From NCBI GenBank assembly GCA_000739535.1, contig DF820463.1, positions 907,929-971,928 on the forward strand: a DNA stretch of 64,000 nucleotides. The letters run 5' to 3'. Origin of the DNA: Candidatus Vecturithrix granuli (GTDB lineage Bacteria > Moduliflexota > Moduliflexia > Moduliflexales > Moduliflexaceae). Under the pieces are notes generated by a model. The model made no database searches. It saw only the letters and a program-made list of their open reading frames with translations, and was not told the DNA's origin. Of the stretch, positions 13,977-28,782 are shown piece by piece (positions within the stretch are counted from its first letter, which is position 1; each line of letters begins with the position of its first letter). The translations under genes and the position numbers were made by a program.

Positions 13977-14840
13977 TTATTTTTCTGGAACAGACACTTG
14001 TCGGAGTTGCTGCGTCACCGCGGCGCGAAATTTTTCGATCAATGCCGAGACAAACTCAATAATATCACGCGTATCATCCTGAATGACCGGAGTGAGATCA
14101 ATGGCATAGATCGCCGATTCCATGACATCAGTGGCGTGAGATTCGAGATAGGTGGCATTGGCGCGGCGACGCGCCAGGGTGGCCAAATCGTAGCGTTTTC
14201 CGCCTGCGATTTGCGAATCATAGACTCCAACCAGGGCTGCAGCTAAATTATCTCGTCCGCTCACATCTAATACAACTTTGCGTTCGTCCGGCATCCAATC
14301 GAGGTCGCGCCAGACTTCACAACCATAGACAGTTTGGGGGCGTTGATTCGGCGGCAACGCCCGAATAGCCCTGAGCACTTTCACCAGCACCCCCACATGG
14401 GTTGCATGTTTATCCGCCGGATTGTGGGTATAGATCACCTGGGGAGTTGTAGCTTGTAAAATCTGTACGAGATCCGCTTCGACCCATGAATCCAGTGGAT
14501 CCTTGATGATCTTGCTCGGATAACCCAATTGAATCATCGCCGCATATTGTCCCACCCGTGCAGCAGTATGCTGTTCTGCCAGTCGGATTTTCTGCATATC
14601 GGCATCCGAGTAATCGGCGTAAATTCCGGCGCGCGGCGAACCAGCGCCGTCAGTACACACCACACCGCTAAACCATTTGTCCGAAATTCCAAAGCATTGC
14701 AGAATACCATGAAAAGCCAAAATTTCCAAATCATCCTGGTGCGCGCTAATCCCCAGATGGGTCGTGCGCGACAGAGCGGCCTGCTGTTCTAATCCATCAG
14801 GGATCAAAATATCTGCGTGAGCATTGTGTAATTGTAACAT
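13977..14840 (-). CDS. PIG-L family zinc deacetylase
   Basis: A 287-residue enzyme of the LmbE/PIG-L family, whose members remove N-acetyl groups from GlcNAc-containing substrates with a zinc ion. The zinc motif is AHQDD near residue 35 (family consensus A-H-P-D-D), and a distal histidine cluster HATHVGV lies near residue 145. The start at 14840 is chosen because a GGGGAG Shine-Dalgarno sits 8 bases upstream; a longer reading frame would run into the repeat hairpin. No signal peptide, so cytosolic. It lies 205 bases downstream of the ROK-like gene in the same direction, which suggests GlcNAc or a sugar derivative as substrate, but this is inferred from context. Confidence 0.85.
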   Translation of the reverse strand: MLQLHNAHADILIPDGLEQQAALSRTTHLGISAHQDDLEILAFHGILQCFGISDKWFSGVVCTDGAGSPRAGIYADYSDADMQKIRLAEQHTAARVGQYAAMIQLGYPSKIIKDPLDSWVEADLVQILQATTPQVIYTHNPADKHATHVGVLVKVLRAIRALPPNQRPQTVYGCEVWRDLDWMPDERKVVLDVSGRDNLAAALVGVYDSQIAGGKRYDLATLARRRANATYLESHATDVMESAIYAIDLTPVIQDDTRDIIEFVSALIEKFRAAVTQQLRQVSVPEK

Positions 14841-15044
14841 GTTGTCATCTCCCCTGAAAATGTAGCGCGAAACTCCAGTTTCGCGCATTGTTGACCGCCG
14901 CGAAACTGGAGTTTCGCGCTACATTGTATTTTCATTGCGCCGGGTGAGCGCCCGTTCATGTTAACTCCTGTAAAAATACCTGTACCGGCGGACATCCCTG
15001 TCCGTCGAAGCTCGCTGCGGACTAGGATGTCCGCGCTACATGAT
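14841..15044. repeat. CGCGAAACTGGAGTTTCGCG repeat copies
   Basis: Two facing copies of the CGCGAAACT(C/G)CAGTTTCGCG hairpin (about 14867-14925), then the TTTTCATTGCGCCGGGTGAGC block shared with bases 1-79, then an inverted repeat with GCGGACATCC / GGATGTCCGC (about 14988-15035). This fills the gap between the ROK-like and PIG-L genes without obvious coding. Confidence 0.7.
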
Positions 15045-16445
15045 TTACCCGATTTCCGGTAAACTGGCGGCGGCTACAGCCTGTCCGACCCTGCGGCTTT
15101 TTTCATCGGGCATGAGCAGCACGATGCGTTGCGCCTCTTCTGGAAATTCCTGTGATAAGACTTCTCGCGCTTTTTGGAAAATAATTTCCCCGCCGCGGCC
15201 AGAGGTGACGCGCCCTAAGATGAGGACGTTTTCATACTCATAATACTCAGCGTAATAGGGCAAGGTATAGCCTAAATACACGCCGATGGTTTCAAAAATT
15301 TGTTCTGCGGCTCGATCGCCGTCATTGACTTTGGCCTGTACCACCTTTAAGCGTTCCGGTAAAGGCATGTCGGCGGGAAAGACAATATTGACGGCCGGAG
15401 CTAATTTATTGACGGCTTGCTGCGAAAAATATAAGGCCCCAACGCCGGTATCGCCCGACCATTCATCAACTGCCGCGTATTCACAAAAATCTACAGGAGC
15501 AAAGGCCAATTCGTTTAAATACCCGGTAATGCGCCCCTGGGGATTCAAATACCCTGCCGCTTCGCTTGAGCCCATGGCAATACCTAACATGGCGGCTTTG
15601 TTCAGGGATAAGGAGCCAGCCAGAGCGGTCACGTCGCCATCATTAATAACGATCAACGGAACGCCCCATTCCTGTTGGAGTTGCAGAAACATTGGCTTGA
15701 TCTTGTTGTGAAATTGCTCTTCGGGGATCGAACGGAAGAGCGAGGCGATTTTGGGTTGATTGGCGATATAGATGCCGGCAGAACTGCCGCCAATTGCATC
15801 AACGCGGGGCATTTTCTCGGCAGCCTGGCGTAATCCGGCGGCAATGTAGCTATAATGATAATTCGGGTCTTGCTGTTTAACCGGATCCCAAGGGATTTCC
15901 GTACTAAACACCGGATTTCCGTCAACCACGGCGGCCACCTTATAGTCGCTCGCGCCCAGATCAAATCCGATGCGGCATCCGTCAAAATGTCCGCCGATTC
16001 TGGAACCCATTTCTCGAAATTCCGGCATCTCATCCGGTGTAACGCGCTCCACAACAAACGGCTTTTCATACACTTTCTGCATGAGTTGCGCGTCGAAGGT
16101 TCGTTTTCCTCCCGGCGCATACCATTGGGCAACCTCCTGGCAAAACGCTTCAGGGCCGCTTACCCAAATTTTCCACCCGCCCCACGCCCAGACTAAAAAT
16201 TTAATATGGCGTTCAATAATGCGCAGAGTTTCCTGATCGTAGGCGGAGCCAGGCAGAAAAATCTCCAGGTCGCTCCGGCTGACCAATCCGTGTTCCCGTT
16301 CAAGTGCGATTTTGAATGTTGTTGTTTTCCTGGATGCCGCTGCAGCATTCCGATAGCTGCGAGTCGCAAGAATCGCCGGAATAAAACCAGGATCAAGGGG
16401 AGCCTGGATGTTTGGCGATATAGAAAGCAATGATTGTCCTGACAT
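15045..16445 (-). CDS. ROK-like sugar kinase with N-terminal extension
   Basis: A 466-residue ASKHA-fold protein. The first 150 residues are not recognised. From about residue 150 there is a phosphate-1 motif, GFDLGASDYK, a GGSSAGI segment, the catalytic-Asp region INDGD near residue 255, and a GIAMGSSEAAG phosphate-2-like motif, all in ROK order. The ROK zinc motif (CxCGxxGC) is missing, so it is an atypical member. The start at 16445 has GGGAGGAAA upstream. It is divergent from a LacI gene across mirrored operators and precedes the PIG-L gene. A glucosamine or GlcNAc kinase role is an inference from neighbours; BadF/BcrA-type alternatives remain possible. Confidence 0.7.
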   Translation of the reverse strand: MSGQSLLSISPNIQAPLDPGFIPAILATRSYRNAAAASRKTTTFKIALEREHGLVSRSDLEIFLPGSAYDQETLRIIERHIKFLVWAWGGWKIWVSGPEAFCQEVAQWYAPGGKRTFDAQLMQKVYEKPFVVERVTPDEMPEFREMGSRIGGHFDGCRIGFDLGASDYKVAAVVDGNPVFSTEIPWDPVKQQDPNYHYSYIAAGLRQAAEKMPRVDAIGGSSAGIYIANQPKIASLFRSIPEEQFHNKIKPMFLQLQQEWGVPLIVINDGDVTALAGSLSLNKAAMLGIAMGSSEAAGYLNPQGRITGYLNELAFAPVDFCEYAAVDEWSGDTGVGALYFSQQAVNKLAPAVNIVFPADMPLPERLKVVQAKVNDGDRAAEQIFETIGVYLGYTLPYYAEYYEYENVLILGRVTSGRGGEIIFQKAREVLSQEFPEEAQRIVLLMPDEKSRRVGQAVAAASLPEIG

Positions 16446-16783
16446 CTTTGTTTCCTCCCGGTAGGGCGAAAGCAAGGGAAAATCCTGCTTTGGCCCTCCT
16501 AAAATATTAAAGCAGTTTCATCGAAAAAGGTTATGCCGGCGAACGTTCGCTTTTGTCAAGAAAATTTTCCTTGACAAGGCGAACGTTCGCTTTTACGGTT
16601 GAAAGGAGTTGACGATAGACGTCCCAGGTCTGGCAGGCCTGGGAAATCTCAAAGTGGTAGTGGTTAAATAGTTAGTGCTGCCCCCCGTTCGTTGAGCGAA
16701 GTCGAAACGAGCCGCTCACTGTTCCCTTCGACTTCGCCCAGGGAACGCATCACTTCCCATTTAACCACTACCATCAAAGTGAC
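16446..16783. promoter_or_regulatory. Divergent control region with mirrored LacI-type operators
   Basis: The palindrome GCGAACGTTCGC occurs twice, at 16539-16550 and 16579-16590, 40 bases apart, inside a larger symmetric block. Plus strand: TTGACA at 16571-16576 and TACGGT at 16594-16599 are 17 bases apart, with one operator between them. Minus strand: TTGACA (16559-16554) and GCATAA (16536-16531) are also 17 apart, with the other operator between them. A LacI-family protein bound here would block both promoters. Bases 16656-16669 and 16759-16772 are a 14-bp inverted repeat (GGTAGTGGTTAAAT) enclosing a GAGCGAAGTCGAA repeat, probably a small insertion in the leader of the LacI gene. Confidence 0.75.
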
Positions 16784-17773
16784 ATGAAAACTACCATTAA
16801 GGACATTGCCCGAGAAGCCGGGGTCAGTTATCAAACCGTCTCAAAAGCCCTGCGCGGCACCGGCTCTGTGAATGAAGACACCGCTCAGAAAATCAAGAAG
16901 ATTGCCAGAGACATCGGGTATGTTCCCAGTATTGCTGCCAGAGCGATGACGACGCGCAAAAGTCAACTCATTGCGATCTTTCTGCCTCAAATTGCCTCGT
17001 CATTTTACCATACCATTCTGCAAGGCATCGAGAATCTTGCCAATGAGCATAACTACAGTGTGCTGCTCTATCTGTTTCACAATACCAGTCTTGAGAATAA
17101 ACTTGAAACGATTCTGTCATATCAGGTGGAAGGGATCATTATTTTTGAAAATCATTTTTCCATCACATTATTAAGTCGCTTTCAAGCGCATAAAATCCCG
17201 ATCCTCTTTGTCAATTCGACCGATATTCCTTCCAATGCCAATCAGATTGCGATTGATGCCTGCTATGGCTTAAAACTGGCATTTGCCCATCTTGCTGAAT
17301 TAGGGCATCGCCATGTCTTGTTTGCCCTGTCAGATCATGAGGCCGGGATGAAACGCATCGGGGAATTACAAGCGATGATTCCTCGTGACTATGGCATGAA
17401 ACTAAGCTCAAAAGTGTATTGTGATTACTATTCAAGTGAGCACGTGTTCCGAAATTTTGATGTGAAGGACGTGCAAAATGGGGTTACTGCGATTGTCTGT
17501 ACGTCTGATTATATTGCTTTACCGATCATGACCCGCCTTCAGGAACAGCGCATTTGTGTTCCTGAAGATATGTCGCTTGTAGGCTTTGATGATCTTGAAT
17601 TCTCTGCGTTTCTCAATCCGCCTTTGACGACGATCCAGCAGCCGAAACGAGAATTGGGGGAGAAAATTTTTCAGATGCTGTTCGGATTAATGCGTGGAGA
17701 AACGCACCAGAGCATGATGATTTTTCCAAAACTGATTGTCCGAGGAACCACAAAAATGTTAACCTCAAAATAG
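16784..17773 (+). CDS. LacI-family transcriptional regulator
   Basis: A 329-residue repressor. The N-terminal helix-turn-helix (TIKDIAREAGVSYQTVSKAL, residues 3-22) and hinge helix (AARAMTT, about 50-56) are canonical, followed by a periplasmic-binding-protein-like effector domain (about 60-325) with VGFDD near residue 265. LacI proteins bind small sugars or sugar phosphates. The two GCGAACGTTCGC palindromes about 200 bases upstream are its likely operators, giving autoregulation plus control of the divergent ROK-like gene. The ribosome-binding site is weak. The next gene follows after 50 bases, so they are probably cotranscribed. Confidence 0.9.
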   Translation: MKTTIKDIAREAGVSYQTVSKALRGTGSVNEDTAQKIKKIARDIGYVPSIAARAMTTRKSQLIAIFLPQIASSFYHTILQGIENLANEHNYSVLLYLFHNTSLENKLETILSYQVEGIIIFENHFSITLLSRFQAHKIPILFVNSTDIPSNANQIAIDACYGLKLAFAHLAELGHRHVLFALSDHEAGMKRIGELQAMIPRDYGMKLSSKVYCDYYSSEHVFRNFDVKDVQNGVTAIVCTSDYIALPIMTRLQEQRICVPEDMSLVGFDDLEFSAFLNPPLTTIQQPKRELGEKIFQMLFGLMRGETHQSMMIFPKLIVRGTTKMLTSK

Positions 17774-17823: not shown

Positions 17824-19461
17824 ATGGCTTTACCACGGTGCATTACGCTTGTTGGTCCGAGCGGATCAGGGATTACCACTGTTTTGAAAGAATTAGAAAG
17901 CATGGGCTATGATATTATTCAGCCAACGCTCCTTGAAACCTTACAGGATGATGAACAACGGACAGATCTCCATGCGTATGTCCCGAAAATATGGGATGCC
18001 CTGGATAAAGGCATTCCCTTAGAAAAATTGGGGGAATATGCCCGAGATTTATGCCGTGAAGCCCAAAAATGTCAGGGAAATATTACGATTTTTCTGCAAT
18101 CGGAACTTCCAACCCTGACGAAACGCCAGGAGGAGAATCGCCTGAAGACCAGGCTTTCTATGGAATATAACCTGCCCCATCAACAGGCGTTGCAGATTGA
18201 ACAGCAGGTCTTACAGCCCTTTTCCGAAGTGGCGCAGATTAAGCTGGATACGACGCATCTCAGCCCGATTCTTGCCCGCCGCACGATCAGTTTGCTCCTC
18301 AATTTACGCATCCCGTTTGAGACCAATAGTTATGAGAAACTCGTGGACCATGTGGTCTCCGACTTTTTCCGATCCTTCAAAGATGTGGCTCTGATTCAGG
18401 AGATCCTTTCACAAGGCGATGCGACGCGCGATTTTCTGAACAGTCAACGGGATTATGTGAAAAATTTGGATAAAGAGCGGATTCTTCAGTCGAATCAGCG
18501 CATCTTTCTGGTCGGAGAGGGATCGTCGCTCTCCTCACTGCAAAGCGCGGTCTGGCTGCTGCACAAGGGCTATGGGCTGCTGCTGAACACGTTTCGCATT
18601 CCGGCTTCTGACCTGCGCTTTACTGATATTACTGATGCAATTGTGGTCATCTGTTCCAATTCAGGGAATACAGCGGAAATTAAGCAAAATATTGATGATG
18701 GAGGCTTTGACGCGGCAAAATTAGCGATTGGGATTACCAACCATGAACATTCCGCGTTAGGCGATTATTGTAAAGAGCATGGGGTCTTGTTCCCCTTGCA
18801 TGTGTGCGATGAGAAACCAATCGCGGCGACGGTCAGCGTGTCCAGGTCAATTCTCACCGCCACGGCCGTGCTGGCCAGAATCGGGGAACTTTTTGGGAAA
18901 ACCGGCGTCTATGATCAAATTTTTGAAGATGCCACGCACCTGCCCGGATTACTGCGTGATGTGTTCAGTCAACGCCGGATCGATACCATTGCCTATGTCG
19001 CCAAGACCCTTGCACGAGGCATGAAAGACGTGCGACATGGCTATATTACCTCGGCCGGATTGTTAAGCGATTGCCTCCTGAGCGAGGCCTCCTTAAAAGC
19101 CAAAGAATTGGCGCGTGTCCATCTGGAACCGATCTTCAATTCTTTGTTTCACGGCCCGCTGAATCCTGATGTGCAGTCCGCTATTTATCTTGAAGACCCG
19201 CTGGTGACGATTGACGCCATGAAAAAACATATTGATAAGTTGAATTTGTATATCCCGACCGTCGTAACGGTTGGCTCACATAATTTCGGGATTCCGCACA
19301 TCTTCATTCCGCAGACCACTCCGGTGAACAGTCTGATTCTGCACCTGGTGACCCTGCAACTCTTGTATTTTCTGATGGGGCTTGAGTCCGGCTTCAGTCT
19401 CGAAGAGATTCAATTCCCGATTCGACTCAGTAAAGTTGTGTTAGAAAGCCCGCTTGTATAA
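17824..19461 (+). CDS. RapZ-like P-loop domain fused to GlmS-isomerase-like double SIS domain
   Basis: A 545-residue fusion. Residues 5-165 resemble the RapZ N-terminal NTPase domain: a P-loop followed by LKELESMGYD, then IFLQSELPTLTKRQEENRL and an LDTTHLSP segment that match RapZ in order and spacing. The Walker-A motif at 11-19 reads GPSGSGITT, so the catalytic lysine is isoleucine. Residues 205-545 are two SIS domains as in the isomerase half of GlmS, with SNSGNTAE near 278. Positions equivalent to GlmS Lys485, Glu488, His504 and Lys603 appear as K425, E428, H443 and K537. No glutaminase domain is present, so sugar-phosphate isomerase or deaminase activity is likelier than GlcN6P synthesis. 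An AAGGAAAA site precedes the start. I know of no described protein with this architecture. Confidence 0.8.
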   Translation: MALPRCITLVGPSGSGITTVLKELESMGYDIIQPTLLETLQDDEQRTDLHAYVPKIWDALDKGIPLEKLGEYARDLCREAQKCQGNITIFLQSELPTLTKRQEENRLKTRLSMEYNLPHQQALQIEQQVLQPFSEVAQIKLDTTHLSPILARRTISLLLNLRIPFETNSYEKLVDHVVSDFFRSFKDVALIQEILSQGDATRDFLNSQRDYVKNLDKERILQSNQRIFLVGEGSSLSSLQSAVWLLHKGYGLLLNTFRIPASDLRFTDITDAIVVICSNSGNTAEIKQNIDDGGFDAAKLAIGITNHEHSALGDYCKEHGVLFPLHVCDEKPIAATVSVSRSILTATAVLARIGELFGKTGVYDQIFEDATHLPGLLRDVFSQRRIDTIAYVAKTLARGMKDVRHGYITSAGLLSDCLLSEASLKAKELARVHLEPIFNSLFHGPLNPDVQSAIYLEDPLVTIDAMKKHIDKLNLYIPTVVTVGSHNFGIPHIFIPQTTPVNSLILHLVTLQLLYFLMGLESGFSLEEIQFPIRLSKVVLESPLV

Positions 19462-19616
19462 ATAGAAGAAACAGGAGTGTCAAAGCTCTGCTTTGACAGC
19501 GAAAGCAGAGCTGTCGCACTCCGGGAGTGCTTTGACAGCGAAAGCAGAGCTGTCGCACTCCACTCCTGCGAAAGCAGGGCTTTCGCACTCCTGAAGATGT
19601 CCTTTGCCAAAAGTAC
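19462..19616. repeat. Cluster of GAAAGCAGAGCT repeats
   Basis: Three tandem degenerate copies of a unit reading roughly GTGCTTTGACAGCGAAAGCAGAGCTGTCGCACTCC lie between the SIS fusion and NagZ genes. Single copies occur at about 154-197 and 57898-57950. Each unit contains internal dyads (GAAAGC...GCTTTC). Confidence 0.75.
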
Positions 19617-20657
19617 ATGATCACAGAATTAGAACACAAAATCGGGCAAATGCTGCTGATCGGGTTTCGAGGGCTTGAGCTTCGGGACGATAATCCGATT
19701 ATTGAGGATATTCGTACACGTCATCTGGGCGGTGTGGTGCTCTTCGATTATGATGTCTGTACACAAACTCCAGCACGTAATATTCACAGCCCTGAACAGG
19801 TGCAGCGCCTGATTGCATCATTGCAAGATATCGCGGTAGAACCTCTCTTCATCGGCATTGATCAGGAAGGCGGCAAAGTGAACCGTTTAAAAGAACGCTA
19901 TGGTTTTCCGCCCTCAGTCTCAGCTCAATATCTTGGCGATTTAGATTTGGTAGAAGTGACCGGAAAACATGCAGAATTGACAGCGAAAACTCTGGCTGAG
20001 TTGGGCATGAACCTGAATTTCGCACCGGACGTGGACTTGAACATCTATCCCGATAATCCGATCATTGGCAAGGTTGAACGCAGCTTTTCCGCTGATCCGG
20101 ATGTCGTGATTCGCCACGCTCGCGAGTGGATCGCCTGCCATCACGCTCAGGGCGTGTTGTGCGCGCTGAAGCACTTTCCGGGCCATGGCAGTTCCCGGCA
20201 GGATACGCACCTCGGGTTTGTGGATGTAACTGATACCTGGTCTGCCAACGAATTACGCCCCTACCAAGATCTGTTGTACTCAGGTTTTCATGATATGGTC
20301 ATGACTGCCCATATTTTTAACGCTCGGCTTGATCCTGAATTCCCGGCAACCCTGTCGTACAAGATGATCACCGGTATTTTACGCGAACAACTGGGTTATG
20401 ACGGCGTGGTGATTTCCGACGACATGCAGATGAAAGCGATTGCTGAACAATATCCCCTTGAAACAGCCATTCAATCCGCGCTTGAGGCCGGAGTTGACAT
20501 CCTGACCTTTGGTAACAATCTGAACTACAATGGAAACATCATGATGCAGGTTGTCACAATCATCAGCCAACTCGTGAGGCAGGGAACTATTTCCGAAAAA
20601 CGCATTGACGAGTCGCATCAGCGCATTTTACGCCTGAAGGCGAGACTACAAACATAA
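19617..20657 (+). CDS. nagZ: NagZ-type beta-N-acetylhexosaminidase (GH3)
   Basis: A 346-residue single-domain GH3 glycosidase, the size of NagZ. It shows DQEGGKVNRL near residue 80 (substrate binding), KHFPGHG...DTH near 178-190 carrying the His-Asp acid/base dyad of NagZ-like enzymes, and ISDDMQMKAI near 265 with the nucleophile Asp. NagZ removes GlcNAc from muropeptides in the cytosol during cell-wall recycling. No signal peptide is visible, in agreement. It is the last gene of the LacI-led unit, so liberated GlcNAc may feed the deacetylase, kinase and SIS enzymes beside it. The Shine-Dalgarno is weak, and the upstream repeats may carry a separate promoter. Confidence 0.9.
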   Translation: MITELEHKIGQMLLIGFRGLELRDDNPIIEDIRTRHLGGVVLFDYDVCTQTPARNIHSPEQVQRLIASLQDIAVEPLFIGIDQEGGKVNRLKERYGFPPSVSAQYLGDLDLVEVTGKHAELTAKTLAELGMNLNFAPDVDLNIYPDNPIIGKVERSFSADPDVVIRHAREWIACHHAQGVLCALKHFPGHGSSRQDTHLGFVDVTDTWSANELRPYQDLLYSGFHDMVMTAHIFNARLDPEFPATLSYKMITGILREQLGYDGVVISDDMQMKAIAEQYPLETAIQSALEAGVDILTFGNNLNYNGNIMMQVVTIISQLVRQGTISEKRIDESHQRILRLKARLQT

Positions 20658-21114
20658 AAAAGAGCCATAATGTACCCGGCACCTTGGCACACACGCACAA
20701 AATGAAAAAGTGCCGGGCACATTTTGCCCTTGTGAACCACCTACCCCTATCATTAGCGGCATAATCAGTCTGTAGGGGACAGGACTCAAGACGCAGCATT
20801 CCCGCAGCACATCATGAGCATGTTTTCTGTCAACGGCCTGTCATGTCGCTGTAACGCCGCAAAGAATGTGTTGCGATGCTTTTGTTCGCAGACGCCGCCA
20901 GACTTCCCCCAAAATTCCCGCGCCGCACTTTTCCCTTGACATTCCAGTGCGAATCCCCGATACAGGGAGCGACGGGCGTGTTTACTAACGATGCTGCGCC
21001 GGATTCTCGTTAGAAGCAGCTTTAAGCCGTTAGACCAGAGATCAAGATACATGATATGAGTGTCTGAAATGTCACCATATTAGAAGATAACTATCGTACA
21101 TGGGATATATTACA
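20658..21114. repeat. Island repeat R1
   Basis: No gene. Bases about 20777-20990 are the first of four copies of a long repeat with the conserved core TGTTGCGA(C/T)GC(C/T)TTTGTTCGC...GCGCCGCACTTTTCCCTTGACA. A short reverse ORF inside the core recurs in the other copies only because the DNA is repeated. Bases 20660-20760 have a GTGCCGGGCAC / GTACCCGGCAC inverted element after nagZ. Confidence 0.7.
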
Positions 21115-21396
21115 ATGGATATTGTGTATTCAGTCAATGATGTCCCGATTCGGTTCACTCGTGAGCGATGGTTCCATGCGGTGCTGCAATCAGTTCCTTT
21201 ACTCCTTGATTTTCCGACGCCCAAATTTTGGGTGGATTATGATCGAGAAGCGGATGTGTTGTATATCAGTTTTGATCGCCCGCAGAATGCCACAAATTCG
21301 GAAATGACGGAGGATGGATTGCTGCTCCGGTACCGCGACGAGCAGCTTATTGGCGTCACGATTCTTGACGCCTCAACTCGTTCAGCGTTGTCATGA
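21115..21396 (+). CDS. DUF2283 protein, probably a deletion fusion
   Basis: A 93-residue protein. Residues about 35-90 are a DUF2283 domain, with YDREADVLYISF and the GITILDAST-type ending, a small fold often found beside toxin-like genes. The first 20 residues (VYSVNDVPIRFTRERW) look like the beginning of a different protein, the VNGVPIRLT-type family whose gene commonly precedes DUF2283. I read this as an in-frame fusion of the start of one gene to the other after a deletion. The start at 21115 is preferred over 21100 because it begins that conserved segment. Function unknown; antitoxin role is speculative. Confidence 0.55.
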   Translation: MDIVYSVNDVPIRFTRERWFHAVLQSVPLLLDFPTPKFWVDYDREADVLYISFDRPQNATNSEMTEDGLLLRYRDEQLIGVTILDASTRSALS

Positions 21397-21413
21397 AGCC
21401 ATGAGCAAACAGG

Positions 21414-21661
21414 GCCGGCTCAAGACGAAGCATCCCGCAGCAAGTCACGATCATGTTTTCTGGAAACAGTCTGTCGCATCGTTTTAACGACGCAAAGAAT
21501 GTGTTGCGACGCCTTTGTTCGTAGACGCCGGAAGACTTTCCCAAAAACTCCTGCACCGCACTTTTCCCTTGACATTCCGGCGCAAATCCCTGATACAGGG
21601 AACGGTAGGTGTGTTCAACAGAGAAATTGTTGCGAGTAGCCATGAGTCATACGCGGTAACT
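21414..21661. repeat. Island repeat R2
   Basis: Second copy of the island repeat. From about 21595 it extends into a segment shared with R4 (GGTGTGTTCAACAGAGAAATTG onward in shortened form), continuing through the start codon of the following ORF to 21706. Confidence 0.75.
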
Positions 21662-21919
21662 ATGGGTGAAAACAGTCAAAATACCAATTTAGCTTCGGAA
21701 TACTATTACGATGCGCTAAACGCCTGTAAAAACAGAGCGAATATCGCCTTACTCTGCGTGACCGAACATCCCCATGACCAATCAATCGTCTTTGTGAATG
21801 GCAAAGCGCATAGTAATTCCTGGCTGGATTTGGAGCGTAAAGCGATCCCGGCGTCAGTAAGCTCAAAACGCCCTTTCTGCTGCTCGGCAATCTTGGCAGA
21901 GTGCTCGCTGACATCTTAG
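21662..21919 (+). pseudogene. Chimeric ORF sharing its first 15 codons with the PD-(D/E)XK gene
   Basis: The first 15 residues, MGENSQNTNLASEYY, are identical to those of the protein at 24989. After base 21706 the DNA is unrelated and the remaining 70 residues look unlike a folded protein (cysteine- and serine-rich end, no recognisable motif). The most likely reading is a gene start carried on the repeat and cut off by recombination. It may be translated, but no function can be given. Confidence 0.5.
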
Positions 21920-22012
21920 GGAAATATACCCGAAAAGAATGATTTCTCGTTTCGAACCAACAGGAAATACATGGAACGAATAATCACGTAAAATAACCTC
22001 TAAAAGCAGGAT

Positions 22013-22366
22013 ATGGTCATGAAACGATTAAGGGAACAGAGAACCCTTACAAAAGAAGAAAAAAAGCTGTTGAAAACCTGTTCGCAGCTTTTGAAAGCGT
22101 TTGATCCCTCTGCCAAAATCATTTTATACGGATCAAGGGCGCGGGGGGATGCGCAGCCTGATTCGGATTATGATGTGCTCATTTTGACCGAAAAGGAAGC
22201 CACCCTGCAAAAGGAAGACGATTTTCGCGGACAGATTTATCCGCTTGAACTTGAGACCGGCGCAGTGATTACGGTCATGCTCTACAATCAGCAAACATGG
22301 GAGTCGCCGCTGTATCAAGCCATGCCGTTTCACCAAAATGTCGAACGCGATGGAGTGACGTTATGA
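22013..22366 (+). CDS. MNT-type minimal nucleotidyltransferase
   Basis: A 117-residue protein with the nucleotidyltransferase signature GSRARGDAQPDSDYDVLIL (residues about 41-59): the G-S-x-x-R-G loop and the two metal-binding aspartates of DSDYD are present. MNT proteins of this size act as antitoxins to HEPN ribonuclease toxins, often by adenylylating them. It overlaps the next gene by ATGA, a hallmark of these pairs. Alternative start codons exist close by; GTCATGAAACG at 22013-22019 gives a slightly shorter protein. Confidence 0.85.
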   Translation: MVMKRLREQRTLTKEEKKLLKTCSQLLKAFDPSAKIILYGSRARGDAQPDSDYDVLILTEKEATLQKEDDFRGQIYPLELETGAVITVMLYNQQTWESPLYQAMPFHQNVERDGVTL

Positions 22367-22770
22367 AAGCAGAAATCCGCACATTAATTGCGTATCGTCT
22401 TGAACGGGCCAATGAAGCGCTTGCCGAAGCAAACTTGCTGCTTGAATGCGGATTTGCGAATACGGCGGTGAGTCGGCTGTATTATAGCTGTTTTTATGCT
22501 GTTTCCGCCTTACTCCTGGCAAAAGGATTCTCCTCAGCGAAACATAGCGGCATTCGTTCGCTCTTTCATCAACATTTCGTGAAAACAGGGGTCATCAAAG
22601 CCAATTCAGGGAGATTGTATGATCGCTTCTTTGACAATCGCCAAAGAGGTGATTATCAGGATTTGGTTCGTTTTGATCCGAATGACGTTCTTGCCTGGCA
22701 TATTGAGGCCAAACAATTTGTCGAAACCATCGAAACGCTTGTGCAGGAAGAGTTGAAACGCCCTGAATAA
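22363..22770 (+). CDS. HEPN-domain protein, toxin partner of MNT
   Basis: A 135-residue all-helical HEPN protein of the UPF0332 type. It has the SRLYYSCFYAVSALL helix and the AKHSGIRSLFHQHF segment where the R-x4-6-H RNase motif is expected. Family members form toxin-antitoxin or Cas-associated RNases. Its ATG overlaps the stop codon of the MNT gene by four bases, so translational coupling is likely. The upstream extension of the reading frame is inside the MNT gene and is discarded. Confidence 0.85.
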   Translation: MKAEIRTLIAYRLERANEALAEANLLLECGFANTAVSRLYYSCFYAVSALLLAKGFSSAKHSGIRSLFHQHFVKTGVIKANSGRLYDRFFDNRQRGDYQDLVRFDPNDVLAWHIEAKQFVETIETLVQEELKRPE

Positions 22771-22822
22771 AAACATCAGAGGAGCACGCCTGAGAACAGA
22801 ATGGTGAAAACGTCTTGAAGAA

Positions 22823-23689
22823 TCTAAGAAGCTGTTTTAAAAGTTTCTTGACTGTTCGTTCACGGTTCGGCAGAGGGGGCGGATGCATCGAACTCTCTAC
22901 CCAACTGATCTCACGGATAAGCAATGGAATCTCATCAAAGACCTGATCCCACCAGAAAAGCCTGGTGGGCGACATCGCACGTTGGACATGCGCGAAGTCA
23001 TCAATGCCATGCTCTATGTCACGGTGAGCGGCATTCAGTGGCGGCTGTTGCCGCATGACTTCCCCAATTGGTCCAGTGTCTATGGCTATTTCCGAACCTG
23101 GCGGAACAGCGGCGTCTGGCAGCGGCTGCATGATACGCTCCGCGCCCAGGTTCGGCCGCACGCTGAACGTCATACACATCCCACCGCCGGCTGCCTGGAT
23201 TCGCAAAGTGTCAAGACGACCCAGGGGCCAGGGGAACGCGGCTATGATGCCGGGAAACACGTCAACGGGCGTAAACGCCATCTCCTGGTCGATACGCTCA
23301 GTCTCCTTTTGGCGGAGGTCGTCACCGTCGCCTCCGTGCAGGATCGGGACGGTGCGCGGCTCTTGCTCAGCCGTCTTGGGGGAGCTTGCAAAAAACTGCG
23401 CAAGATTTGGGTCGATGGCGGCTATCGGGGACACCTCGTCACCTGGGTGGCGTCCCAATTTCGGTTTGTCCTTGAGCCTGTCCTCCGTTCCCAGGACACG
23501 ACCGGATTTACGGTCTTGCCGCGACGTTGGCTGGTGGAACGCACCTTCTCCTGGTTGAATCTTTGTCGTCGTCTCAGCAAGGATTATGAGTGTCAGACCA
23601 CCACGAGCGAAACCTTTATTTATATCGCCATGACACGTCTCATGTTGAGACGTTTGGCTCCTGGATAACTTTTAAAACAGCCTCTTAGA
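22823..23689 (+). mobile_element. IS5-family insertion sequence
   Basis: Terminal inverted repeats of 23 bases with one mismatch lie at 22823-22845 (TCTAAGAAGCTGTTTTAAAA and onward) and 23667-23689, enclosing one intact transposase gene. Total about 867 bases. The exact IR ends and target duplication could not be fixed because the flanking CTAAG/CTTAG bases are ambiguous. Confidence 0.85.
22883..23668 (+). CDS. IS5-family DDE transposase
   Basis: A 261-residue transposase with the DUF4096 N-terminal helix-turn-helix region (LTDKQWNLIKDLIPP) and a DDE catalytic domain. The first Asp is in CLDSQSVKTT (near residue 110), the second in WVDGGYRG (near 177), and the Glu in VERTFSWLN...RRLSKDYE (near 220). 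Full length and single frame, so the element may still be active. GC content is higher than the surrounding island, consistent with recent arrival. The promoter probably lies in the left 60 bases. Confidence 0.92.
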   Translation: MHRTLYPTDLTDKQWNLIKDLIPPEKPGGRHRTLDMREVINAMLYVTVSGIQWRLLPHDFPNWSSVYGYFRTWRNSGVWQRLHDTLRAQVRPHAERHTHPTAGCLDSQSVKTTQGPGERGYDAGKHVNGRKRHLLVDTLSLLLAEVVTVASVQDRDGARLLLSRLGGACKKLRKIWVDGGYRGHLVTWVASQFRFVLEPVLRSQDTTGFTVLPRRWLVERTFSWLNLCRRLSKDYECQTTTSETFIYIAMTRLMLRRLAPG

Positions 23690-23786
23690 ACAGCACGGTT
23701 ACATTGTCAAAGACAACAACGCCTGGAACATCCGCGTCCCCCTGTTCGACGCCTGGCTGCGGAAGTACGTCGAAACATTCGAATAA
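23685..23786 (+). pseudogene. C-terminal remnant of an ATPase-like gene, cut by the IS
   Basis: Right of the IS an open frame encodes 33 residues ending ...WNIRVPLFDAWLRKYVETFE and a stop. The pattern L-x-x-x-G-Y-I ... W-x-x-R-x-P-L-F-x-x-W-L-R is typical of the winged-helix end of archaeal-type AAA ATPases found in defence islands. The rest of the gene is not present left of the IS, so a deletion accompanied the insertion. Confidence 0.5.
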
Positions 23787-24136
23787 TTTCCATGAGTAAA
23801 GATGGACCTATCTGGTTGATTAGGGTCGCTCTGAAGCTTTAGACTTATCCTGAACTAATGTGTTGCGACGCCTTTGTTCGCAAACGCCGCCAGCCTTCCC
23901 AAAAACTCCTGCGCCGCACTTTTCCCTTGACATCTCAACGCACAGCCCCAATATAAGGGAGTTATTGTGAGCAGACAGGAGAAAAATAATGGATGGGGAA
24001 CACTTGTATAATTCTTCTCTTGATCGTATATTACGTGAAAAGCGGATACTGAAAGCATGATGTGCTGACTCTCTTTTAAAAATGAATACGACCGGAGACA
24101 AAGCGCGTCAACATGACAGAAAAACGAGGAAGGACA
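23787..24136. repeat. Island repeat R3 and gene-free flank
   Basis: Bases about 23862-23965 are a shortened copy of the island repeat with the TGTTGCGACGCCTTTGTTCGC core. No other gene is supported in this stretch; the reverse-strand frames across the repeat are repeat-derived. Confidence 0.65.
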
Positions 24137-24265
24137 ATGTCTCGAAAAGATACCTATCATCCTCTCGTGAAAGAGGCCCTGATACGAGAAGGATGGACGA
24201 TCACCCATGATCCGTATTATTTTGTGGATGCCGTTGAGGAGGAACTAATATGGAAAACCCCATAG
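24137..24265 (+). pseudogene. xisH: XisH remnant with internal deletion
   Basis: A 42-codon ORF begins with MSRKDTYHPLVKEALIREGW and continues TITHDP, which is the conserved start of XisH, the PD-(D/E)XK-like partner of XisI. Intact XisH is about 140 residues; here the sequence breaks off after TITHDP and the nuclease core is missing. A good GGAAGGA ribosome-binding site remains. The frame ends inside the start of xisI (overlap 24250-24265). Confidence 0.75.
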
Positions 24266-24684
24266 CATTTTATCAAACCTGCATTAAGCAGATCCTCTCA
24301 GAATATGAATCGCTCAACACTCAGGACACAGAGATTCATCTGTGTTTTGATGATGAACGAATGAGCTATCTTGTCATGCGGGTAGGGTGGTTTCAAGAGT
24401 ATAAACGGATTCACCGCTGCGTAATCCATGTCGAGATTGTTCAAGGTACCGTCGTCATTCAGGCAAATAACACTGAAGATCCGATTGATACTGATTTGAT
24501 AGAGATGGGCATTCCCCAAGAAAAAATTTGTCTTGGATTTATCCCGGCTGATTTTCGTGCGTATGCAGAACAGCATCCCCGGAGAAGACCGGAGTTGAAC
24601 GCCAGCAAAACCCCTGTCGAAGGCTCGACAATGGCGTCATCACCACAGCGCACCACCGATGCGATGATAGCAACGATGTCATGA
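24250..24684 (+). CDS. xisI: XisI-family protein
   Basis: A 144-residue protein matching XisI, first named as an fdxN-element excision controlling factor in cyanobacteria and since found widely without any excision element. Recognisable segments are the N-terminal helix FYQTCIKQILSEYE, LVMRVGWFQEYKRIHRCVIHVEI, and DPIDTDLIEMGIPQEKICLGF. About 25 residues at the C-terminus (after AYAEQHP) look non-homologous and may be a read-through tail. With xisH broken the pair is probably non-functional. XisH/XisI have been proposed to be a toxin-antitoxin-like pair. Confidence 0.85.
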   Translation: MENPIAFYQTCIKQILSEYESLNTQDTEIHLCFDDERMSYLVMRVGWFQEYKRIHRCVIHVEIVQGTVVIQANNTEDPIDTDLIEMGIPQEKICLGFIPADFRAYAEQHPRRRPELNASKTPVEGSTMASSPQRTTDAMIATMS

Positions 24685-24988
24685 TGAAGATGCGCGTCTC
24701 ATAAGGCGGGTATGTTATTGAATGGGAATGTGGCGCTGACCTGTCGGCCGATACTATTGAAGCCCGCTGGCGCGTGACGCGCGATGCTGATCAGCCGGCT
24801 GTCACGTCGCTGTCACGCCGCGAACAATGGGTTGCGGCGCCTTTGTTCGCAAATGCCGCCAGCCTTCCCCAAAATTCCTGCGCCGTACTTTTCCCTTGAC
24901 ATTTCAGCGCAAATCCCCGATACAGGGAACGGCAGGTGTGTTCAACAGAAAAATTGTTGCGAGCAGCCATGAGTCATACGTGATAACT
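24685..24988. repeat. Island repeat R4
   Basis: Bases about 24789-24988 are the fourth island-repeat copy and are nearly identical in layout to R2, including GATACAGGGAACGG, GGTGTGTTCAACAG and GAGCAGCCATGAGTCATACG just before the start codon. No separate gene is seen. Confidence 0.75.
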
Positions 24989-25444
24989 ATGGGTGAAAAC
25001 AGTCAAAATACTAATTTAGCTTCGGAATACTATGTGTTGTCGATGTTATACCGGATTGGCGCTGACGCCTATTTGACGTTGGGGAACAAAAAATCTGTTG
25101 ATATTGTTGTGGTCAAAGGAGGAGAAACGCTGACAATTGATGTGAAAGGGTTGAAAGGCACAACAAATTTTCCCATTGATAATGTGAATAAGCAAGATGA
25201 GAAGCATTATCTTATTTTTGTCTCATTTCTTAATAACATCGCAGATCCAGGTTGTCTGCCTGAAGTGTATATCGTTCCATCACAAGCGTTAGCGTTGGAG
25301 CATGAAGAAATCGGGAATCAGTCCTTGATGTATCAAAATCCAAAAGGAAATAGACGAGTTGTTCAGTTGAGCAGATTGAGAAAAACATATAAACGATATA
25401 AGGATAAATGGGAATATTTTGTAGAATCTCCCATAGTTCTCTGA
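24989..25444 (+). CDS. Small PD-(D/E)XK nuclease-like protein
   Basis: A 151-residue protein. After the helix ASEYYVLSMLYRIGADAYLT comes SVDIVVVKGGETLTIDVKGLKG (split here as SVDIVVVKGGE and TLTIDVKGLKG), which fits the core D-x(n)-(D/E)-x-K arrangement of the restriction-endonuclease-like fold: Asp in VDIVV, Asp and Lys in IDVKG. The family is close to small prophage and island nucleases of unknown target. The start at 24989 is preferred because an identical start region is seen at 21662. The reading frame upstream of it runs through repeat R4 and is discarded. It is followed closely by the DUF6508 gene. Confidence 0.65.
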   Translation: MGENSQNTNLASEYYVLSMLYRIGADAYLTLGNKKSVDIVVVKGGETLTIDVKGLKGTTNFPIDNVNKQDEKHYLIFVSFLNNIADPGCLPEVYIVPSQALALEHEEIGNQSLMYQNPKGNRRVVQLSRLRKTYKRYKDKWEYFVESPIVL

Positions 25445-25983: not shown

Positions 25984-28782
25984 ATGGCAATGCCTTCGCT
26001 TACCCCTCAAGAATTTGTGGCAAAGTGGACGAAAAGCACGCTGAAAGAGCGATCGGCGGCGCAAGAACATTTTATTGATGTCTGTCATCTCATCGGGCAT
26101 CCCACTCCGGCTGAAGCAGACCCCACCGGTCAACACTTCACCTTTGAAGCCGGGGTCAATAAACAGCGCGGGGGGCAAGGATGGGCGGATGTCTGGAAAA
26201 AAGGCTATTTTGCCTGGGAATATAAGGGCAAACATACAAACCTTGACAAAGCGTACCAGCAATTACTGCAATATCGTGAAGCCCTCCAGAATCCTCCTCT
26301 CCTGATCGTCTCCGATATGGAACAGATCGAGATCCATACCAACTTCACGAATACGATAAAACACGTAATCGTTTTATGCCTGCATGATCTCGTAAAGCCT
26401 GAATCGCTTGCCAAACTTCGCGCCGTCTTTTTCGAACCACAGGCTTTTCTTGTTCCCCAAACCACCGAACAGGTCACGGAACACGCGGCGAAGATCTTTA
26501 CACAACTTGCTGACATTCTTCGCAAACAACAGGTAGAACCGCTACGAGCGGCTCATTTTTTAATCCAACTCCTCTTTTGCTTGTTTGCCGAGGATGTCGG
26601 ACTCTTGCCCAAAGAGTTGTTTACGCAGCTTATCCGCAATACGCAGAAGAAACCCGCGATTTTCAACGAACAATTGAAACAGCTTTTTAAAGCGATGTCA
26701 ACAGGCGGGTGGTTTGGCTTTCAAGAAATCGCGCATATTGACGGGAGACTCTTTGACAACGACGCTACGGTCGAATTAGATGAGGCCAGTCTTGATATTT
26801 TAGCGCACGTGTGTTCCCTGGATTGGTCGAATATTGAGCCGTCAATTTTCGGAACCCTGTTTGAACGGAGCTTAGACCCCGGCAAGCGAGCGCAGTTAGG
26901 AGCGCAATATACCAGTAAAGACGATATTCTGCTGATTATCGAGCCGGTGTTGATGCGCCCATTACGGAGGCGCTGGGAAGAAGTGCAGCGCAATATTCGT
27001 GAGTTATCTGCCAAACGCGAAAACACCTCGGCCAAAGGAAGTCGAACAAAACTTCAGAATGAGATCAACGCCCTTTTACGAAGGTTTGCTGATGAAATTT
27101 CACAAGTCCAGGTCTTAGATCCGGCCTGCGGCAGCGGTAACTTTCTGTATGTGGCTTTAAAACAACTGCTCGATTTGGAAAAAGAGGTGATTGTGCTTTC
27201 AAGCGAGGTCGGGGGCGGCGGCTTCTTTCCAACGGTGTCTCCCTTGCAGCTTCATGGCATAGAGACGAATGAATATGCCTATGAACTGGCGCAGGCAACG
27301 ATTTGGATCGGGTTTATTCAATGGCTGCGTGAAAATGGCTTCGGCATGCCGAAGGAACCCATTCTCAAACCCCTGGAAGCGGTTCTGCATCAGGATGCGA
27401 TTTTAACCTATGATGGCCTGGGCAATCCGCGTGAACCGGAATGGCCGGAAGTGGATGTTGTAATCGGGAATCCGCCATTCTTAGGCAATAAGCGCATGCG
27501 AAAAGAAATGGGGGATGTATACGTCAAGAACTTGCGACAGCTTTACGGCGATAGATTGTCCGGCGGAATTGATTTGGTCTGTTACTGGTTTGAAAAAGCA
27601 CGCGCAATGATTGAAGCCGGAAAACTTCAAAGAGCCGGATTGTTAGCAACGCAAGCCATTCGAGGAGGAGTAAACCGTACGGTCTTAGAACGTATCAAAG
27701 AAACCGGAAATATTTTTTGGGCGCAATCAGATCGGGACTGGATATTGGAAGGGGCAGCGGTGCATATCTCAATGGTAGGATTTGATAATGGAAATGAAAA
27801 AGTACATGAACTTGATGGGAATCTCGTAGAGGTAATAAATCCTGATCTGAGCAGCAGTTCTGATCTGACTCAAGCAAAAATACTGTCAGAAAACAAAGGA
27901 CTTGCTTTTCAGGGTCCCGTAAAAATAGGGTCGTTTGATATTGATTCAACAATAGCTCATGAAATGCTTACTCTACCAAACCCTCACGGAAAGCCTAACT
28001 CGGAGGTAATTCGCCCGTGGATAAATGGATTAGATATAACTCGTAGACCGCAAAACATGTATATCATTGATTTTAATGCAATGCCTCTTGAACAAGCTTC
28101 ACTATATGAAGCCCCTTTCGAACACATTCATAAATATGTTAAACCCGAAAGAGACAAAAATAGGCGACCTCGTAGACGAGAATATTGGTGGCAACATGGA
28201 GAAACTGTTCCAGGATTAAGAAAGGCAATAGCACCTTTAAATAGATTTATCTGTACTCCGAGAATAGCAAAGTATCGACTTTTTATATGGGTAAAAGATG
28301 GTACGCTTCCGGATAGTGCTGTCATCGCAATTGCTCGTGAAGACGATTATTTCTTAGGGGTGCTACAGTCAAAACCTCATGAACTCTGGACATTACGTCG
28401 AGGAACCGCCCTTGAAACTCGTCCCCGCTACACGCCAACCACAACCTTTGAAACCTTTCCCTTTCCCTGGCCTCCAGGCCAGGAACCCCACGACGATGAA
28501 CGTGTGCAAGCCATTGCCGCCGCAGCGAAACAGCTTGTAGAGCTTCGCGAAAATTGGCTCAATCCACAGGGCATGTCAGAAAAAGACCTCAAGAAACGCA
28601 CGTTGACCAATCTGTATAACCAACGCCCGACCTGGCTTCAACTCGCACATGATGCCCTTGACAAGGCGGTGCTGGATGCGTATGGCTGGCCTCATGACAT
28701 TCAGGATGAAGAGATCCTCAAAAGATTATTAGATCTGAATCTTCAACGAGCAGGATCAGAAAAACACAGGTTAACAGCTTGA
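25984..28782 (+). CDS. MmeI-like Type IIL/IIG restriction-methylase
   Basis: A 932-residue single-chain restriction-modification enzyme. The N-terminal nuclease motif is D69-X9-E79-Y-K81, almost the same spacing and position as in MmeI. A helical spacer (about 150-330) follows, then an N6-adenine methylase domain: motif I LDPACGSGNF near residue 378 and motif IV GNPPF near 494. The target-recognition region lies at about residues 580-805, and a helical C-terminus at about 830-932. One polypeptide methylates and cuts DNA at a fixed distance from its site. A strong AAGGAGAA lies before the ATG. The target-recognition part (27730-28400) is visibly AT-rich with AGA and ATA codons, unlike its flanks. 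Confidence 0.88.
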   Translation: MAMPSLTPQEFVAKWTKSTLKERSAAQEHFIDVCHLIGHPTPAEADPTGQHFTFEAGVNKQRGGQGWADVWKKGYFAWEYKGKHTNLDKAYQQLLQYREALQNPPLLIVSDMEQIEIHTNFTNTIKHVIVLCLHDLVKPESLAKLRAVFFEPQAFLVPQTTEQVTEHAAKIFTQLADILRKQQVEPLRAAHFLIQLLFCLFAEDVGLLPKELFTQLIRNTQKKPAIFNEQLKQLFKAMSTGGWFGFQEIAHIDGRLFDNDATVELDEASLDILAHVCSLDWSNIEPSIFGTLFERSLDPGKRAQLGAQYTSKDDILLIIEPVLMRPLRRRWEEVQRNIRELSAKRENTSAKGSRTKLQNEINALLRRFADEISQVQVLDPACGSGNFLYVALKQLLDLEKEVIVLSSEVGGGGFFPTVSPLQLHGIETNEYAYELAQATIWIGFIQWLRENGFGMPKEPILKPLEAVLHQDAILTYDGLGNPREPEWPEVDVVIGNPPFLGNKRMRKEMGDVYVKNLRQLYGDRLSGGIDLVCYWFEKARAMIEAGKLQRAGLLATQAIRGGVNRTVLERIKETGNIFWAQSDRDWILEGAAVHISMVGFDNGNEKVHELDGNLVEVINPDLSSSSDLTQAKILSENKGLAFQGPVKIGSFDIDSTIAHEMLTLPNPHGKPNSEVIRPWINGLDITRRPQNMYIIDFNAMPLEQASLYEAPFEHIHKYVKPERDKNRRPRRREYWWQHGETVPGLRKAIAPLNRFICTPRIAKYRLFIWVKDGTLPDSAVIAIAREDDYFLGVLQSKPHELWTLRRGTALETRPRYTPTTTFETFPFPWPPGQEPHDDERVQAIAAAAKQLVELRENWLNPQGMSEKDLKKRTLTNLYNQRPTWLQLAHDALDKAVLDAYGWPHDIQDEEILKRLLDLNLQRAGSEKHRLTA

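Follow-up and report, generated by a model that had tools for sequence, protein, structure and literature searches.

What does a RapZ-type P-loop domain do in a protein whose remainder resembles the isomerase half of GlmS? The question is raised by an open reading frame in a stretch of 64,000 nucleotides from Candidatus Vecturithrix granuli (here called the window; the genome comprises 8.38 Mb in 21 contigs), which belongs to KSB3 (Modulibacteria), a group of bacteria that is known from bulking anaerobic sludge. The frame is free of interruptions and encodes 545 amino acids that make up a RapZ-like domain, a linker and a double SIS (Table 1). A RapZ-like N-terminal domain and a double SIS in one protein had already been noted in a sequence-only reading of the window, and this observation is confirmed, with the likeness pertaining to the N-terminal half of RapZ only. 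The fusion is a new domain architecture built from known parts. The earlier reader was not aware of any protein with this layout, and in the literature searched we likewise found none described and nothing that brings RapZ, SIS domain and fusion together.

Table 1. The fusion gene and its surroundings. Positions refer to the window.
Feature	Position	Strand	Basis or remark
Fusion open reading frame	17824-19461	+	
RapZ-like N-terminal P-loop domain, residues 1-160	17824..18303	+	Pfam, NCBIfam, hhalign, ortholog alignment
Linker, residues 161-205	18304..18438	+	mostly helical in model; conservation poor beyond residue 181
GlmS/NagB-II-type double SIS, residues 206-545 plus stop	18439..19461	+	profile matches, catalytic residues
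LacI-family regulator	16784..17773	+	50 bp upstream of fusion
GH3 beta-N-acetylhexosaminidase (NagZ-like)	19617..20657	+	downstream of fusion
ASKHA/ROK-like sugar kinase, divergent	15045..16475	-	no significant Pfam match itself; ortholog at locus L039 matches ROK weakly
PIG-L-family de-N-acetylase, paired with kinase	13977..14888	-	profile match, neighbourhood comparison
Perfect palindrome GCGAACGTTCGC	16539..16550	.	divergent intergenic region
Second exact copy of GCGAACGTTCGC	16579..16590	.	40 bp from first
Dense nested inverted repeats	19462-19616		fusion-NagZ gap; arms 20-34 nt, 72-86% complementary
Dispersed repeats	20800-25033		102-183 bp, two to four copies, 61-92% identity
Overlapping nucleotidyltransferase (MNT) and HEPN genes	22013-22770		
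IS4/5-type transposase	22883-23668		inside repeat-bearing stretch
MmeI-like type IIL restriction-modification protein	25984-28782		932 aa

Distribution of the fusion

Three further full-length orthologs (63-71% identity) are present in other MAGs, giving four proteins in all that carry both domains in one gene. The closest (71%) stems from a candidate division KSB3 MAG of the same family as the window genome, and the remaining two (64% and 63%) reside in MAGs labelled Deltaproteobacteria and Desulfobacteraceae. Accidental read-through or an assembly fusion of two unrelated genes is refuted as an explanation, and chance is excluded with it, because one architecture with a common junction and near-identical length recurs in four independent MAG assemblies and selection acts on both halves (see below). 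KSB3 bacteria have been reported to exchange genes with Desulfonema ishimotonii, a filamentous sulfate reducer (PMC6390638), and it is therefore plausible that the orthologs in the MAGs labelled Deltaproteobacteria and Desulfobacteraceae reflect gene transfer; mis-binning may also account for them.

In a PF03668 search of 385 genomes the fusion occurred, among the matches listed, in the window genome and its KSB3 relative only. Seven other genomes have long open frames around PF03668 that turned out to be read-through upstream of a normal RapZ and are not fusions. A first scan of genome contigs with the single fusion protein yielded no relatives and a second was based on two peptide patterns only, so that the distribution is under-sampled. 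Viral contigs and plasmids contained no relatives of the fusion; the viral contigs featured three loci with GlmS and none with RapZ.

A RapZ-like domain with lost Walker motifs

PF03668 (RapZ-like_N) matches residues 8-149 with 33.7 bits (cut-off 25.4, E 3.8e-8) and exceeds the cut-off in all three further orthologs. Together with the profile-profile comparison of the domain with 13 RapZ proteins (E 9.5e-17), this bears out the RapZ N-terminal domain that had been proposed for residues 5-165. The NCBIfam RapZ model matches residues 8-158 (E 2e-13 on the isolated domain), aligns at positions 3-151 of 278 only and misses its equivalog cut-off of 244 with 47 bits. The Pfam runner-up AAA_28 (E 0.025; 0.0011 for the isolated domain) and every other P-loop family stay below their cut-offs. 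The C-terminal GlcN6P/RNA-binding domain of RapZ is not present in the fusion, where the SIS half occupies the remainder, and neither of the two KSB3 genomes, that of the window and that of the relative, contains a separate RapZ match. RapZ acts as an RNase adapter that controls the GlmZ/GlmY sRNAs by way of RNase E. Rfam families did not match between positions 13800 and 21000 (7.2 kb), a result that is silent on RNA binding.

The Walker A motif is degenerate (GPSGSGITT, residues 11-19), and all four orthologs share the replacement of its lysine, here by isoleucine, which had been recognized in the window sequence. Two further RapZ motifs, Walker B D-x-R and DNLP, are lost as well, the D-x-R column being absent from the fusion alignment, and none of the four proteins has the intact Walker A GK[ST] plus Walker B D-x-R of RapZ. 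The LID-like block at residues 98-112 (LTKRQEENRLKTRLS) and the DTT motif at residues 142-144 are retained. The RapZ N-terminal domain has a kinase fold (PMC5737377), from which a bifunctional kinase-isomerase might be proposed, with the P-loop domain phosphorylating the sugar for the SIS half. This is very improbable given that the Walker A lysine and the Walker B motif are missing in every ortholog and that a separate sugar kinase adjoins the fusion gene in three of the four loci.

Across the four orthologs, mean column identity amounts to 84% for the N-terminal domain, compared with 77% in the SIS half. All six ortholog pairs show a lower dN for the N-terminal domain, with dS being saturated. 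Within this domain, conservation peaks at residues 101-120, which coincide with the arginine-rich LID-like region also present in RapZ; in the SIS half, blocks 421-460 and 521-540, which surround the catalytic residues, rank among those conserved most. Judged from these substitution patterns, both halves are under purifying selection. Strong conservation of the N-terminal domain despite the loss of its lysine implies that it is kept for a function; as the Walker B and DNLP motifs have vanished too, this is probably a role other than ATP hydrolysis, of which the domain is probably incapable.

A distinct lineage of double-SIS enzymes

The glmS model matches residues 190-525 (E 2.7e-9) and hhalign aligns the SIS half with GlmS isomerase halves over 325 columns (E 5e-13), in agreement with the GlmS-isomerase-like double SIS assigned earlier to residues 205-545. 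The NagB-II model matches residues 192-472 (E 1.5e-8), and hhalign gives NagB-II a slight edge over GlmS (E 5.7e-16) at unequal profile depths. The scores remain below the cut-offs of both TIGR01135 for GlmS (36 bits, cut-off 418) and NF046059 for NagB-II (34-47 bits, cut-off 430). Residues K425, E428, H443 and K537 align with K485, E488, H504 and K603 of E. coli GlmS (literature numbering) and do not vary among the four orthologs, so the catalytic positions named in the sequence-only reading are exact. Their use as a mark of GlmS does not hold because stand-alone NagB-II deaminases share the same set. FrlB lacks both lysines and AgaS the last one. The fusion has K425 and K537, and an identity as AgaS or FrlB-type deglycase is thus dismissed by catalytic pattern; AgaS, without the lysine at position 537, reaches an E of 0.0095 in hhalign.

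The phosphate-loop residues of the fusion are S234/S235, S278-N-S280-G and T283. Most phosphate-binding residues are invariant in the four orthologs and identical to those of GlmS and NagB-II; asparagine replaces an otherwise invariant glutamine and glutamate stands where GlmS mostly has cysteine. The C-terminal L-S-K-V is like the L-x-K-V-T of NagB-II and unlike the L-A-K-S-V-T of GlmS. AlphaFold2 models of the four orthologs (mean pLDDT 48; 45 for the N-terminal domain alone) are usable for the first SIS domain only, which superposes with the GlmS isomerase domain (Z 18.2), NagB-II (16.1) and the GlcN6P deaminase from P. furiosus (14.4). When 27 double-SIS sequences are placed in a tree, the fusions group as a clade of their own on a branch of 3.5 changes per site, outside the GlmS and NagB-II clades. 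Twelve NagB-II-like proteins, likewise below the NF046059 cut-off, make up a clade (99/94) that does not include the fusions. Close relatives of the SIS half other than the fusion orthologs were absent from the 289 genomes searched. The enzyme half would thus best be called a distinct double-SIS lineage, adding a deep branch to the GlmS/NagB-II enzymes.

The long branch and the exchanges of glutamine for asparagine and cysteine for glutamate imply that the substrate may differ. A deaminase, isomerase or deglycase for another phosphosugar, of the galactosamine, mannosamine or muramic type or else an Amadori sugar phosphate, would fit these features and the presence of NagA and NagB homologues elsewhere in the window genome. 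We consider it rather unlikely, since the fusion keeps catalytic residues that FrlB and AgaS partly lack and the neighbouring NagZ suggests substrates containing N-acetylglucosamine.

Gene neighbourhood

In the window, the PIG-L and ASKHA kinase genes diverge from the genes for LacI, the fusion and NagZ, with the LacI-family gene and the fusion gene probably forming one transcription unit. The two GCGAACGTTCGC palindromes are the sole copies in the window, up to one mismatch. We take their sequence to resemble LacI-family operators, and they are likely candidate operators of the adjacent LacI-family gene. The inverted repeats between the fusion gene and nagZ are possibly a repeat element or a processing site. 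PDB sequence searches yielded no match for the PIG-L protein and a marginal one for the kinase (E 0.98). We know of no described function for this ASKHA/ROK-like kinase family; it is conserved together with PIG-L in several unrelated genomes. Beyond nagZ, the stretch with dispersed repeats is a probable mobile or recombinogenic segment. It harbors the MNT and HEPN genes in a layout typical of toxin-antitoxin pairs.

Varying sets of the same elements recur in the four loci, namely kinase, PIG-L, an ABC sugar importer or NagZ, and a regulator of the LacI or NagC-like type. A GlmM paralog and then GlmM come after the fusion gene in the KSB3 relative, where a divergent run encodes kinase, PIG-L, a NagB-like protein, a second PIG-L and an ABC sugar importer. 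The order in the Desulfobacteraceae MAG is NagC-like regulator, fusion, kinase, PIG-L and ABC importer. At the fourth locus (L038), a ROK regulator precedes the fusion, an ABC sugar importer is divergently oriented, and neither kinase nor PIG-L is seen within its 15 kb. The kinase/PIG-L pair also exists without the fusion in other lineages, and in genome G208 it shares one gene run with a NagB-II-like protein, the two being separated by a sugar-binding protein. This replacement pattern, found in one genome, is the best evidence for where the fusion may stand in a pathway.

Both KSB3 genomes possess a GlmM paralog in line with the real GlmM, at L073:6780-8072 (-) on contig C6 of the window genome and at L032:6690-7979 (-) in the relative, where it lies directly downstream of the fusion. 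The phospho-serine loop reads ISGSSTG or ISGTTSG in place of ITASHNP, and the metal loop NLDASS or NLDATG in place of DADADR. Because these loops are lost, the paralog looks like a conserved pseudoenzyme.

The complete GlmS catalytic set and the succession of GlmM paralog and GlmM, the next enzyme towards UDP-GlcNAc, behind the fusion gene of the relative would suit an ammonia-dependent GlcN6P synthase, i.e. a GlmS without glutaminase that serves the cell wall and is under feedback control by the RapZ-type domain. We judge this improbable. The N-terminal glutaminase (Cys1) domain is missing, the N-terminus being RapZ-like, and deamination or isomerisation is therefore favoured over synthesis. 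Moreover, the window genome carries a canonical GlmS with glutaminase on contig C16, so that the fusion is not the GlmS of the cell, and its GlmM resides on a different contig (C6). The remaining neighbours have catabolic roles (importer, deacetylase, hexosaminidase, NagC or LacI regulators). As a whole, the surroundings speak for the breakdown of amino sugars rather than for control over the synthesis of cell-wall precursors and constitute a candidate cluster for amino-sugar catabolism in KSB3 bacteria. The window genome has its own NagA and NagB homologues and the cluster of the relative includes a NagB-like gene, which may render the deaminase step redundant.

Proposed function of the fusion

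With a probability of roughly one half, we regard the fusion as a double-SIS enzyme of the GlmS/NagB-II type that acts in catabolism as an amino-sugar-6-phosphate deaminase/isomerase and carries the RapZ-type N-terminal domain as a regulatory or assembly module. N-acetylated amino sugars would be imported or released by the ABC importer and NagZ, the acetyl group would be taken off by the PIG-L deacetylase and the amino sugar would then be phosphorylated by the ASKHA kinase. In the double SIS, H443 is predicted to open the ring and K537 to form a Schiff base with the putative substrate, upon which E428 and K425 would isomerise it, presumably in the direction of ammonia release and formation of fructose-6-phosphate or an analogue. 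The N-terminal domain has kept a phosphate-loop backbone and the arginine-rich block, and most likely would bind a phosphorylated effector or mediate dimerisation and in this way gate the enzyme.

Such gating is modelled on RapZ, in which the N-terminal domain appears to restrict how ligands reach the C-terminal partner. In E. coli RapZ, GlcN6P is bound by the C-terminal domain and not by the N-terminal domain, which has been reported as apparently auto-inhibitory (PMC7073468). The P-loop holds sulfate chiefly via backbone amides (PMC5737377), and it is thus conceivable that the lysine-less P-loop of the fusion binds phosphate. The location of GlcN6P sensing also means that the proposal of a sensor fused to the enzyme it controls is not supported as it was put, because the sensing domain is the one the fusion lacks. 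Overall, the earlier interpretation stands with respect to the domains, the catalytic residues, the lost lysine and its option of a deaminase whose P-loop fold has given up ATP binding; it falls with respect to the sensor-target fusion and a GlmS-specific identity.

SIS domains act as sensors in MurR/RpiR regulators. The fusion might, accordingly, be no enzyme at all, with an SIS pocket that binds an amino-sugar phosphate and an N-terminal domain that signals, for example by contacting a regulator or RNA. The dead P-loop, the dead GlmM paralog in the cluster of the KSB3 relative, attesting to pseudoenzymes in the pathway, and the nature of RapZ itself as a GlcN6P-responsive adaptor (PMC7073468) are compatible with this idea. 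Invariance of the four catalytic residues within highly conserved flanking blocks is unlike a decayed enzyme and renders it quite unlikely.

Returning to the deaminase/isomerase, the RapZ N-terminal domain pairs with a GlcN6P-binding domain in RapZ and would pair with a sugar-phosphate enzyme in the fusion. Tentatively, and with more doubt than confidence, we suggest that it serves as a general control module, independent of ATPase activity and combined with various domains that handle GlcN6P, a sensing domain in RapZ and a catabolic enzyme in the fusion. If so, the fusion would be an amino-sugar-phosphate enzyme with built-in allostery via a phosphorylated ligand in the lysine-less P-loop and would reveal the long-unknown function of the RapZ N-terminal domain. 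It could serve as a natural 'Rosetta stone', with a RapZ N-terminal domain devoid of hydrolysis motifs tied to an enzyme of measurable activity. Comparison of the enzyme with and without this domain would be a direct test of whether the RapZ fold gates sugar-phosphate binding.

Comparison with known systems

In Thermococcus, Dac belongs to the PIG-L type and the deaminase to the SIS type. In the chitin pathway of this organism (Dac, GlmA, deaminase), the free sugar is deacetylated before it enters metabolism (PMC6566704). The early deacetylation proposed here is similar, as a parallel only; the fusion cluster is bacterial and features NagZ and an ASKHA kinase. With the GlmS isomerase half, the fusion shares the double-SIS fold, the K/E/H/K set and the sugar-phosphate loops at about 15-17% identity over the modelled domain, but differs by the absence of a glutaminase half, its position in a separate deep clade and the exchange of glutamine for asparagine in the phosphate loop. 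NagB-II from S. denitrificans (8eym) and the archaeal type (2cb0) agree with it in the catalytic set and the L-x-K-V C-terminus. NagB-II is a stand-alone catabolic double SIS, and it is a NagB-II-like protein that occurs beside the kinase/PIG-L pair in G208; unlike the fusion, NagB-II has no RapZ-type N-terminal domain and forms its own clade. RapZ differs in its C-terminal GlcN6P/RNA-binding domain, its Walker A lysine, Walker B and DNLP motifs and an N-terminal domain that is not joined to an enzyme, but it resembles the fusion in the order and spacing of the N-terminal motifs, in the sugar-phosphate-related domain that follows and in the amino-sugar context.
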